Below, in pieces: positions 18,731-37,200 of a DNA stretch of 64,000 nt. The translations under genes were made by a program, and so were the position numbers. The notes under the pieces were generated by a model. It worked only from the letters and a program-made list of their open reading frames with translations. It was not told the DNA's origin and ran no database searches. The stretch is taken from the NCBI GenBank assembly GCA_035235625.1, contig CP141145.1:41148668-41212667 (forward strand), in the 5' to 3' direction. This stretch comes from Saururus chinensis (Eukaryota; Streptophyta; Magnoliopsida; Piperales; Saururaceae). Each line of letters opens with the position of its first letter. Within the stretch, counting starts at the first letter, position 1.

Positions 18731-20540
<1,810 letters not shown>

Positions 20541-31760: not shown

Positions 31761-33309
31761 AATCCCGTCCTTGCAAAGTCCATAAAATTGCACTCTCATC
31801 TAGAAAATTAATTGCACTGTCCTCATTTCTCTTCTTGGCTAGACATCTCTTGGATTATCTTTCAATGATCCACATTTATCTGTAGCACAATTAAAGATTG
31901 GTGTGGGTTATCCCTTGCATCTCGAGTTATCCTCTTCTGGTCAACTCCCAATGGGACAGCACGTTAATAGCTATCCATCTTCATCTTGGTATTTGGTACT
32001 TGTAATTATCCAAACAGAACTCAAAATAGTACTTACTTTGGACCGGTAGAAAGATAATATCAATTTGATTGAGATAAAATAAAAAAACTTATAAATTCAA
32101 AGAAGAAGGAAACTTTAACATACACCTTTCACTATTTAGAAACAAAAGACACCAAAAAGTTAGGAAACATATATACCATTTTAATTATACACCTTGTGTT
32201 ACCAGTGCACTGCACAAAGTATAAAAGTTTCATTCACCTAAAGATGAATAATGCACAGAAGCAACATCAGTTTCCTTCTCTGAATGCTAGGGAACAAGAA
32301 GCCATATTCTCAATAACTCTAATTCTTTTCACTGAAAGAGATACAAGCTCGAGGACAACAACACAGAGTTCCATTTAATCAAAGGACCAACTAGTCAACT
32401 TATACAGAAGCTTGCAAATCCCTTCAAACCAGATCAATGAATAATAGAAAATAAAACCTACAATGAAATTGATCAAGATAAGCATTTAATAACTACAGAA
32501 ACCGGATTCTCATTGTTCCACTTGTTCCTCTTCATAAGAACAAGCAAACTCAATATTGGCAGTGAAAGAGAGAAAAAAAAATTTCCAGAACTAGCAAGGG
32601 TAATTCAAAAGCATTGTCACAAAGTTCAAATTCGGTTCTATTTGACGAGGGGTTAATTCAGTTGGGCTTGAAAAAATTAGGATAAGTTGGGGGAAATGTG
32701 GAAAATTTTGGTGGTGTAAAGGGCAATGATAAAAGATAAAACACTATGCACTACAACAACCGAACACTACCAAAACATTTAAAGATCATAACATGCACAT
32801 AGAATTTAAATGCAAAACGACTCAAATGGGAAAACAAAATAGAATCAGTCGATATACCATTGCAATAGCCTCAGCAATCTATATCTGAAGTCAACATCTT
32901 GAGACATTCGACTTTGGAAAATAATCCGTCAATAAGTGTCATCCAATGGTGTAGCCCCTATAAAAGCAACCATAAAGGCATAAAAATGATGCCTTATAAT
33001 GGCATTAACCAACTGGTAGAGTTGTATTTTTTTATTTACCATACAACAAGTATCCCACCAGACCTAGAAGTTCAATTTGACAAGCCAATTTTTGGACAAC
33101 AGCATAGAGAATAAAAATACAACCAAAATCATTAACTTAACAATGGACCAACAATATTTTTAATAGGAAAAAACACAAATAAGAGGCACAAAAAGTAAAG
33201 CTCCATGTTAAACTATATCAAAATTTGCAAGTCTCAAATATCCAAAATATCAAGTACATAATCAAACATTAATGGTCTCCACATAATCTCACTCTATGCC
33301 ACCAAACCG
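31761..33309. other. Spacer downstream of the hAT-derived gene
   Basis: AT-rich sequence with short exon-like scraps on the minus strand (for example near 32870) but no supportable gene. It probably includes the 3'UTR of the hAT-derived gene ending at 33310. Confidence 0.3.
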
Positions 33310-35360
33310 TTAATTTTTTTCTTTTCTATCAGTAATCAACTCATCTTGTTCAGGAAAAACATTGATGTGTTCTAAAAAAATTGGCTTCAAAAGATCTCCT
33401 TGAATTGCATTAATTTTCTTCAAATGAAGGTTCATCCTCACAAAAACAGGATCATTAAGTGTATTTTGCTCTAATATATTTCTCCTTTTTGAAAGAGCTG
33501 CTTCAAATGCGCTCCAACTTCTTACACAAGCGGATACACTACATGGTTGGCTTAACAACCTCGTTGCTACTCTTTGAAGTTCGGAAAACTTATCAACTAC
33601 AAGTGCGAACCGCCACCAATCACCTTCACATGATTTAAAAGGAATGAATCAGTAATTACGAAATAATGTATCATAAAAGTACATGTAAAATAATCCTTAC
33701 TCGGATGTTTGGAGTGAATAGTCATCTTTGCTAGTGATGCAAATAAATTGGACTTGAAACCAATATAATCCATCAATTGGTTGTTAAATGCTTCTCTTTC
33801 ATGATCAGTGCTAATCATCTTTTGAAGAGCTATTGATATCCCCTCATCGACATAGCTATCATGCTTTACAAACTTGTCATAGTACAAATGTTGATTGAGG
33901 AGAGCTGCTAAAGCATGGAGGGGATGATGCAACTGGTTCCATCTATTATCAATTATCTCCCAATAGGGTTCGTATTTGCATAGCACTCCATCATAGTATT
34001 TAGCTATTGTCTCTTTTGCTCTATCTACAGCTTCATATACATACCCTAAAGTTGCTCTTTCACTATCAACCATTTTCAGCACCCTCAAAAGAGGTTCAAT
34101 CACAGCAATCACTTCCTTCCCATCTTCCCAAAAATTGGTACCTTGTATGAGATTAGTTACATCTACTCCCTCTAGGCTTTTTGTTTGAGATAATGCTCTC
34201 CATTCATTTGATGCCACCATAAATTTTAAAGCTTCCTCTTGTTTTATTATTGACTGCAACGCAAAAAAATTGGTTGCAAATTGTGTAGGTGTTGATCTCT
34301 TTAACTCATTCCCTTTTGCATAAACCTTCATACAATTCAACACATGATTATCCTTGTAGATAAAGTTCTTTATATCTTTTGCTTTTTTTATTGTCTCCTT
34401 CACCTTTAGTATTTCTCTGTCAATGTCTTCTAGCATTAACTCCAAACACTCTGAAGCACAACATGTTTTCAATACGTGAGGCATCTCTTCTTCTAAGACA
34501 TGCCTAACAGTAGTGTAGTTTGTAGTATTGTCTGCTATGATTTGAACAACATTCTCCCTCCCAACATGCTCATCAATTCCACGAGTAATAAAATCAGCAA
34601 GCAATTTTGGATCATTTATTTTTCCCTCCACTGATTCTGAACATATGAAGATGGTACCTCTGATTGAAGATGCTAATAAATAAATGTGATTTCTACCTTT
34701 CAAATCTTTCCATCCATTCGACATAATTGTGCAGCCCATTTCGGCCCATGATTCTTTCACTTCCTTCACATAAGTATCCACTTCCTCTCTCCAAGAGTGC
34801 AACAACTTAGTCCTCATAGTTTCACTGCTAGGTGGAATGTAACCTGGACCATGGTTGGCTATAGAAGCCACTGCAGCTATAAACTCCGGTGCACTTGCAA
34901 CATCGAAATCAATATCATTTAAAACAAAAAACCTTGCAATTGCTAAATCAACAATTTCCTTATCTCTTTTCCTAAGGTGCTCATTTATAATAGTTTCTGA
35001 TCTTCCTACATGTTGTTGATCACCTTCTCGATTACTAGTACCAAATGGCATCATTGAGAGCATCACATTAGAGGTTGAACCCGCTGAGGAAGTAGAAGTT
35101 ACACCTGACATTCGCACTAATTTAAGAGCACTTTTCCTTCTCTTCTTTCCCACTTCTTCACATAACCCTTGGGCATATGCTTGTACTGAATCTGGAGCCA
35201 CTTGACACAACTTTATATCATGTCCTGCTAACCTTCCCAAATGAAACTTCATCCTGGTCACCGAACAAAAGAACTCTTCCTTACAATAGTTACATCTTAT
35301 TTTATTCCCAGGTCCAACCTTCTCCATATGCTCCCAAATTTTCTCCTTTTGTCTAGGCAT
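33310..35360 (-). CDS. hAT-transposase-derived BED/DUF659 protein, probably domesticated
   Basis: Two coding exons, 33701-35360 and 33310-33623, joined by a 77-bp GT-AG intron, give one open frame of 657 residues. Domains in order: BED-type zinc finger (about 8-52, 'CNYC' then 'RMKFHLGRLAGHDIKLC'); linker; DUF659/hAT catalytic core (about 160-330); insertion and RNase-H-like part; and hAT C-terminal dimerisation region after 'DWWRFALVVDKF' (555 on). Expected catalytic positions: the usual 'SDGW' Asp is Asn215 ('MSNGWKD'), the Asp of 'IIADNTTNY' (277) is kept, and the usual 'CERNWS' Glu is Val587 ('CVRSWS'). It is therefore unlikely to transpose but has stayed open, as in DAYSLEEPER-like host genes. 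A 5' non-coding exon may lie near 37078-37200. Confidence 0.8.
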
Positions 35361-37200
35361 TCTTAAATTTCAAGCCAGATACCCTATAAGAAAATTGACA
35401 AGAAAGAGCACAGTTCATAAGCAAGAAAAGCACACTTCACAGGAATACAATTACAGTAACACCTCTCTACAATATCGTATAACAATACTAACTCCTGAGT
35501 AGCTCAATATAATATTTTAACAAAGATATTCATCAAATTTAACTTAAAGATTAAGATAACATATCCACCAAACTCCAAAATGTTGTCATATTCCGGCTAC
35601 TCAGTAGTAAGCACCGAAAAAAAAAGACAACCATATTAAGCTGAATAGAACATTTCAGACAAAAAAGGACGAAGTGAGATATAGCACTAACCATAAATAG
35701 AGTTCGGGCCACAATCTAAGGCAGAAGAAACCTAGTCTGCAGTCCAGAGGAATCTCTTATCAATCAAGAAGCACTATATTAAAGTAGAACAGTTAATGAT
35801 CCAAAGAGGAATTGTCAACCAAAAATGTACTTAATATTTGCTAAGAACATGAGATAAAAATAAACATTTACAAAGAAGAACGTGTCTATCTGCACCCTGG
35901 AAAACTCCTCAGTACCCCAAAAATAATGAAATTTTAGGGGTTTTCCTATTTCTCCTGTACCCCATCTACCCCCACGAAATTTCCCATCTCATTACCCCAA
36001 GTAAACCTAGAACAGAACATGGTGCTCAATAAAGTATGAAGTTCTATATGGTGGCCGCCCAACATGAGGTAGTAAGGCCTCTACACATTGTATGAGATAA
36101 CTTCTGAAATGGCTCTCACAGTGGGCACCCTCGACAATGTACGAAATTAGATAGAACGGGTGCCCACTGCAAGGAAGTAAGGCCTCTATGTGAAGCACGA
36201 GGAGACTGCTAGAATAGAGCTCATGATAGGTGCCACCTGCTAGAATAGAGCTCATGATAGGTGCCACCTGCTAGAATAGAGCTCATGATAGGTGCCACCT
36301 GACAACGTATGAAGTTAAAGTGCCCACCGCGAGACACTCATAATGGGGTCGCCGCCGCCCCTCCCCCCCCCCCCGGGCGACAATGTATGAAATTATATAG
36401 GGGGTGCCCATCGCGAAGGAATAAGGACTTCGCAAGGGTAAACGGTGAGTAAGCAGGGGGGTTCGTAAAGTAAAAGTAAAATAAATTTTCAGTTCTGAGA
36501 AAATTTTATTGAACAGAAACGGGTAAAAGAGATACAGGGTGCTGAGGGGTTTTTTCGGGTGTATATAGCCGCGTTCTACAAATAACAGTACAGAATAAAA
36601 TATGCAACCAAATTTTCAAATTTTGTCAACTATGCAACAAGAGTGTAGGGTAATCTACCAAACAAACAAAGCGCCCACTGGCAGCGGCAACTACTTCTTT
36701 CATCCCTGAACAGTACTAAGTGTAAGCTGCAAAAATCCCAAGGTTAAGGTAGAAAGAATATATAAAAAATGAAGTGGAGTCTAAGCGGGGAAAAAATGGA
36801 GTACTGTAGAGACTGTCGTCACATGGAGAACCAATCACCAGTTACTGATCGACTGTCTTTTGAGGAGGATAATAATTGAGATACTAGGAAGCAACTGCAC
36901 CTTCAGACACTTTAGACCCAAAAAAAAAAACTCAACACTTTAAGACATTAGAGCTCTACTGCTAAGGCGTAGAATGTACTTAGAGGGGCTGGCGACTGGC
37001 GAGTATAAGGAAGCGACCAGAGGGAGAAGGAGGAGGACTGGATCACTGAAGAGACGGGAACGGCACTTACAACTCACCAGTGACCACCGACGGGCGATGA
37101 GAGACGCACCAGTGGCAGGGCGGAGGCCGGCGAGCTGGGTCTTCTAATCTGGCAGGTGGTGGCGAACGGCGGTGCGGGCAGGGTTCAAGGCCTCAAAAGA
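35361..37200 (-). other. Probable 5'UTR intron and leader of the hAT-derived gene
   Basis: An acceptor ('CTTATAG') just upstream of the ATG at 35384 and a donor ('CTGGTGAGT') at 37077 would define an intron of about 1.7 kb. A GC-rich leader at about 37078-37200 lies near the head of the divergent PGRL gene. No coding sequence is seen between. This is inferred from splice-site sequence and composition only. Confidence 0.35.
36010..36460. repeat. Degenerate repeats with a 31-bp triplicate
   Basis: At 36207-36299 the 31-bp unit 'tgctagaatagagctcatga...' occurs three times, almost identical. Around it, 'gacaatgta(c/t)gaaatta' followed by 'gggtgccca(c/t)(t/c)gc(g)a' recurs three times in looser form. 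A poly-C run lies near 36365. No coding potential. Confidence 0.75.

Follow-up and report, generated by a model that had tools for sequence, protein, structure and literature searches.

This work revealed a hAT-derived gene in Saururus chinensis that we read, with a probability of roughly 0.6, as a single coding copy, full-length, from an old hAT transposon of the DUF659 type, which the plant retained for its own use once the rest of the family was dead. An unbroken frame with a ruined active site, among relatives that were all broken where examined, suggests that the protein may have been retained for a different task, probably that of binding DNA; we are probably dealing with a catalytically dead, DNA-binding, exapted hAT gene, and apparently a young one. 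The gene lies in a stretch of 64,000 nucleotides (hereafter the window), C6:41148668-41212667 in a genome of 516 Mb and 11 contigs, and its features given below are all on the minus strand. It runs from an ATG at 35360 to a TAA at 33310, and its 657 codons, which an earlier reading made from the letters of the window (the sequence-only reading) had found to be open across one short intron, indeed contain no internal stop. Exon 1 (33701..35360) encodes residues 1-553 and the first base of codon 554 and carries a BED finger, a linker, the first part of an RNase H-like core and a helical insertion. Exon 2 (33310..33623) carries the hAT dimerisation region and the TAA stop. They are separated by a phase 1 GT-AG intron of 77 bp (33624..33700); it starts with GTAAGG and ends with TGTGAAG, and homologous sequence is found in eight of the 11 aligned relatives. 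Upstream of the ATG, a CTTATAG at 35384..35390, read by eye, probably marks the acceptor site of a 5′ UTR intron, and several relatives have, also by eye, similar sequence where it stands.

The gene adjoining the hAT-derived gene is presumably PGRL-like; Pfam assigned no family to two of its frames, and a second PGRL locus, sought in the S. chinensis genome as a test of synteny, was not found, the neighbour's exon having one match. For the GT47 gene nearby, the genome gave 13 further matches (the best, at 63%, on C5), none of them within 100 kb of any hAT place listed in the DNA search described below. The window also contains two partial polyprenyl synthetase (GGPS-like) frames on the minus strand (18853-19901), with similar pieces seen by eye nearby, which look like a duplicated, decaying gene.

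The domain content of the protein is that of a hAT transposase of the DUF659 type. Pfam matches were above cut-off for DUF659 (E 1.4e-41; residues 177-330; 34371..34832) and for Dimer_Tnp_hAT (E 9e-10; 33430..33621), and the zf-BED match (17.7 bits) was below the cut-off of 20.6. The BED zinc finger (residues 1-55; 35196..35360) has nevertheless kept its ligands C23, C26, H40 and C52, all in invariant columns of an alignment of 12 sequences. When the frame of exon 1 was modelled (mean pLDDT 70.6), Foldseek retrieved five chains of the Hermes transposase (E 2e-7 to 6e-7) and no match other than Hermes at E ≤0.001, the next one being at 0.04. Profiles were needed to align residues, since a single-sequence search of the PDB gave one match that was not significant (E 0.92).

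The key residues of Hermes, in its own numbering, are D180, D248, R318, W319 and E572 (PMC6027215). In the profile alignments to Hermes (PDB), codon 215 falls on the Asp of IDLWTD (D180), codon 277 on the Asp of TDR (D248) and codon 587 on the Glu of SAASERTFS (E572). Two of these three residues are replaced, in agreement with the sequence-only reading: codon 215 is AAT, Asn (34716..34718), codon 587 is GTA, Val (33523..33525), and codon 277 remains GAC, Asp (34530..34532), so that the D180/D248/E572 set of an active hAT transposase is incomplete here (N215, D277, V587). Two further changes go beyond that reading: codon 304 (GAG; 34449..34451), where CxxH has its His, encodes a Glu, which none of the seven relatives with a full codon there shares, and codon 360 (CAA; 34281..34283), placed by the profile alignment at R318, encodes a Gln that is also found in three of the seven relatives with data. 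Ancestral inference gave Glu at 587 (0.95), which makes E587V clearly specific to this gene, and Gln or His at 304, Glu being unique to the gene. It was less decided at 215 (Asp 0.55, Asn 0.45) and at 360 (Arg 0.69, Gln 0.29), so that the Asn and the Gln there may have arisen before the gene's own lineage. Asn215 alone is no proof of catalytic death, because some changes of D180 or D248 leave Hermes with partial activity (PMC2533014). However, E572A and E572C blocked all transposition steps in the same work (PMC2533014), and since changes at this position abolished every step in Hermes, we infer that the hAT-derived protein is no longer able to cut DNA.

A search of the genome for DUF659 gave at least 152 matches. 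In the protein search, the locus itself was followed by pieces of relatives, mostly 41-66% identical (one 39%), and further down by other DUF659 families, about 29-39% identical over long stretches. The DNA search gave at least 30 matches, grouped into at least 16 related places besides the locus itself; the matches listed of at least 200 bp are 65-74% identical and a few shorter pieces 75-82%. A near-identical copy, sought by this search in the whole genome, was not found among the matches listed. Eleven of the 16 places so grouped were examined, the other five being fragments of 130-272 bp. All 11 relatives are broken, with 2-18 in-frame stops and 2-16 frameshifting coding indels per copy, whereas the hAT-derived gene has none of either, a contrast between intact gene and broken relatives that is more than chance. 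Multiple near-identical copies with terminal inverted repeats (TIRs), which the sequence-only reading had named as evidence against a host gene, were thus not among the matches listed: those of at least 200 bp stop at 74% and every relative examined is broken. In the nine relatives other than C5b and C5c, we counted 77 in-frame stops and 142 coding indels, 92 of them frameshifting. The five coding indels that distinguish the gene from most relatives (3, 9, 9, 3 and 6 bp) all leave the reading frame in register. At least one relative also has three of them, and the two that are unshared are a 3-bp insertion at gene position 46 and a 9-bp deletion at 339. The relatives form a dead hAT/DUF659 transposon family.

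Several other features of these families deserve mention. At gene position 1009, six relatives (C4a, C9a, C1b, C5a, C1c and C1d) are interrupted by an additional intron of about 84-91 bp, several of these introns being GT...AG-like; it is absent from the hAT-derived gene, C3a and C1a, and the other three relatives have no sequence there. This is an intron gain or loss within the transposon family. Two broken related copies, C1:28572287 (L058) and C1:28601326 (L057), lie about 28 kb apart, are sisters in the tree (100%) and are probably a local duplication. Among other DUF659 genes, L004 and L045 (C1:14006800), L002 and L023 have long open frames with altered catalytic positions (SECWSD and CASYC in L004, TIN in L002, TYR in L023), and may likewise serve the host. 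The frames of L001 and L035 are open as well but keep both Asp residues and the CxxH His. A scan of viral contigs found four stretches that fit a pattern, none of which was confirmed as a relative.

The ends of the element were found only through comparison with relatives, and a blind scan around the gene for 8-bp duplications and inverted repeats gave nothing credible. The best copy among the relatives, C5a, measures 4,037 bp (4.04 kb), its two ends being CAGAGTAACAATTTTC and, in the opposite direction, CACAGTAACAAAGTTT; the duplication that flanks it agrees at 7 of 8 bp. C4a has 4,020 bp between matching ends. Beyond the stop codon of the hAT-derived gene, a 3′ terminal region (32612..32985, minus strand) is homologous by local alignment to the 3′ ends of the dead relatives: stretches within 32631-32985 gave local scores of 71.5-101.5 with the 3′ ends of four relatives, compared to shuffled maxima of 45.5-55 (60 shuffles each). 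Alignment to relatives places the 3′ TIR of the element at 32612..32627 (minus strand), where it reads CATTGTCACAAAGTTC on the plus strand from the element end, and its core TGTCACAAAGT is common to C1a, C3a and L061. The weight matrix of this repeat is weak evidence by itself, because the best scores in 20 shuffled sequences were 10.3-19.9, compared to 15.2 at the locus; the claim of a 3′ end rests on position, orientation and interior homology. The 3′ terminus of the dead family still standing at 32612 indicates that the gene, intron included, is a transposon copy still in place; it did not arise as a retrocopy. L061 itself (C8:19191600-19191747) is a separate copy of a transposon 3′ end with the core TGTCACAAAGT, possibly part of a non-autonomous element.

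At the other side, a candidate 5′ end with a TIR-like sequence, AAATTTTCAAATTTTGTCAACTATG (36610..36634, minus strand), was read by eye without statistical support; the 5′ terminal alignments to relatives did not score above shuffles, no matching target duplication accompanies it, and a 5′ end at 36634 was left as unsupported. No credible upstream partner was found for TTCAAAAG in the search for an 8-bp target-site duplication (TSD), the absence of which is expected if the 5′ end of the element has been lost. Also upstream of the gene, a repeat of about 700 bp (35874-36578) with 128 matches in the genome includes a 34-bp unit that occurs three times, every 31 bp (36206-36301); it possibly lies inside the old element.

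The evidence from dN/dS for purifying selection on the gene is moderate. In a nucleotide tree of 11 sequences, from which C5b (145 codons) was left out, the gene has a branch of its own of 0.119, next to the C3a/C1a pair, C4b (whose placement is unsupported, 49%) and the intron-bearing group. A codon model with three branch classes gave an omega of 0.56 on this branch, 0.41 on internal branches and 0.88 on dead tips, the last value being lowered by the setting of stops to missing. The own branch differs from omega = 1 (2dlnL 5.89, p = 0.015; 5.89-7.30 over four topology runs, two of them of the same arrangement) and less clearly from the omega of dead tips (2dlnL 3.33, p = 0.068). Removal of C4b reduced the first difference to 2dlnL 3.70 (p = 0.054), and removal of C4b, C5c and C1b to 3.16 (p = 0.075). 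Bootstrapping gave a 95% range of 0.42-0.98 for omega on the own branch (61 replicates), with 3% of the replicates at or above 1 and 7% at or above the dead tips. Furthermore, part of this branch may date from a mobile phase, because the tip of the broken relative C1a has an equally low omega (0.53). The sequence-only reading had counted a dN/dS near 1 against itself, and an omega of 0.56 (p = 0.015) leans towards it, although less firmly in the reduced sets (0.054 and 0.075). Its proposal that the open frame reflects selection for another role remains the best one, but as far as dN/dS is concerned the backing is moderate (0.56, with p from 0.015 to 0.075).

Constraint is unequal along the protein. 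With branch lengths held fixed, omega values for the own branch, internal branches and dead tips were respectively 0.07, 0.33 and 1.62 in the BED finger, 0.92, 0.63 and 0.96 in the linker, 0.68, 0.35 and 0.81 in the part with 215, 277 and CxxH, and 0.36, 0.43 and 0.73 in the helical insertion; for the C-terminal part they were 0.77, 0.44 and 0.87. Only two of the amino-acid changes inferred on the own branch are in the 55 codons of the finger compared to 127 in the other 602 codons (Fisher p = 0.0006), the counts in the finger being small (two amino-acid and two silent changes). The constraint on the C-terminal (dimerisation) part is not clear, its omega of 0.77 being not clearly below 1. A finger that is held and a catalytic half that has slackened form the pattern expected of a protein retained to bind DNA but not to cut it.

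Other explanations of the open frame have to be weighed against these data. That a neutrally decaying dead copy simply happens to have no stop yet would suit an overall omega test that reaches only p = 0.015 and weakens in reduced data sets. It is strongly disfavoured by simulation, since a neutral branch of 0.182 acquires on average 14.6 stops, the probability of no stop being 4e-7, that of no coding frameshift 4e-7 and that of neither 2e-13, and by the 2-8 stops seen in each of the five relatives whose tips measure 0.11-0.19. Because neither a stop nor a frameshift is present, any neutral part of the branch was short: the probability of escaping both falls from 0.16 at 0.01 neutral substitutions per site to 0.05 near 0.016 and 0.027 at 0.02, and the neutral stretch thus represents at most about 0.016 of the 0.18 substitutions per site. 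Within this limit falls the main rival of our reading, namely a transposon copy that was selected as a mobile element for most of the branch and became inactive only recently, its frame being open for lack of time. The probabilities at 0.01 and 0.016 allow for it, the 3′ terminal repeat is still readable, and the omega of 0.56 is not far from the 0.41 of the internal, mobile-phase branches. However, recently active elements usually leave close copies, and no listed match of at least 200 bp exceeds 74%; the 5′ end is unrecognisable, with the repeat of about 700 bp in the upstream region; and both H304 and E587 would have been lost in a short time. When the loss of these two residues is added, the joint neutral probability is 1e-4 at best; it is 5e-3 for E587 alone and 1.3e-5 for at least three of the four sites changed, figures to be taken as guides since the sites were chosen after the observation made in the sequence-only reading. 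We consider recent inactivation unlikely, but worth keeping in view.

The dead protein could also have been kept as a repressor or poison of its own transposon's relatives, i.e., as a transposon- or host-level silencer and not for host genes. A finger that is the most constrained part beside a loose catalytic half would suit such a role, and dispersed relics with related ends exist, but all 11 relatives examined are dead, which leaves little to repress, and we give this explanation a slim chance. If, as we prefer, the gene was retained as a host gene, its product would be a nuclear DNA-binding protein that the BED finger and the C-terminal dimerisation region might direct to specific sites. 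These putative targets could be old transposon ends or adopted host sites, where the protein may affect transcription or chromatin. The boldest form of this proposal, an exaptation caught early and in place, in which cutting has been lost, the DNA-binding finger is kept under strong constraint and the protein would now regulate host sites provided by the dispersed termini of the family it came from, now extinct, is for the moment a long shot. The case for a host function is entirely an evolutionary one.

Domesticated plant transposases are generally found without transposon ends, and their origin is therefore a matter of guesswork. In the present case one genome has the intact gene, a transposon end and the dead siblings, so that it can be read and tested in what sequence cutting was lost, binding was retained and the family died out, and the contrast between finger and core is a direct prediction on binding. 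A literature search recognised no paper as dealing with this gene, which is not a claim of absence from print.

Among plant genes that derive from hAT transposases, At1g79740, At3g17450 and At3g22220 of Arabidopsis encode proteins with DUF659, and the SLEEPERs carry a different core domain. The S. chinensis gene resembles DAYSLEEPER and the other SLEEPERs as a plant gene of hAT origin, but differs from them, as they are described, by its intron, its terminal repeat and its match to DUF659; for SLEEPER genes, an origin as retrocopies with loss of the repeats has been proposed (PMC3499209). MUSTANG, to which the sequence-only reading had likened it along with DAYSLEEPER, is likewise a domesticated plant transposase gene, but this likeness goes no further since MUSTANG derives from MULE, another superfamily (PMC2528002). 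According to the same source, domesticated transposase genes lack TIRs and TSDs "in general", and single-copy hAT-like genes occur in grapevine (PMC2528002). The S. chinensis gene agrees with domesticated genes in having an intact frame beside broken relatives (11 of the 11 examined) and departs from them in its ends, as a 3′ TIR remains, a 5′ TIR and a TSD not having been found. With Hermes, a hAT transposase of the housefly, it shares the fold and a residue-level profile match, at 14-15% identity in the fold match of the exon 1 model and with an Asp and the Glu of the active site replaced. The three Arabidopsis genes are exapted hAT-derived genes whose mutant lines have phenotypes, At1g79740 on one line only (PMC5715367). 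Like them, the present gene is a transposase-derived plant gene; unlike them, it belongs to a separate family (26-32% identity with 11 other aligned DUF659 frames of its own genome) whose 3′ end it has kept and whose 11 further members, as far as examined, are all dead.
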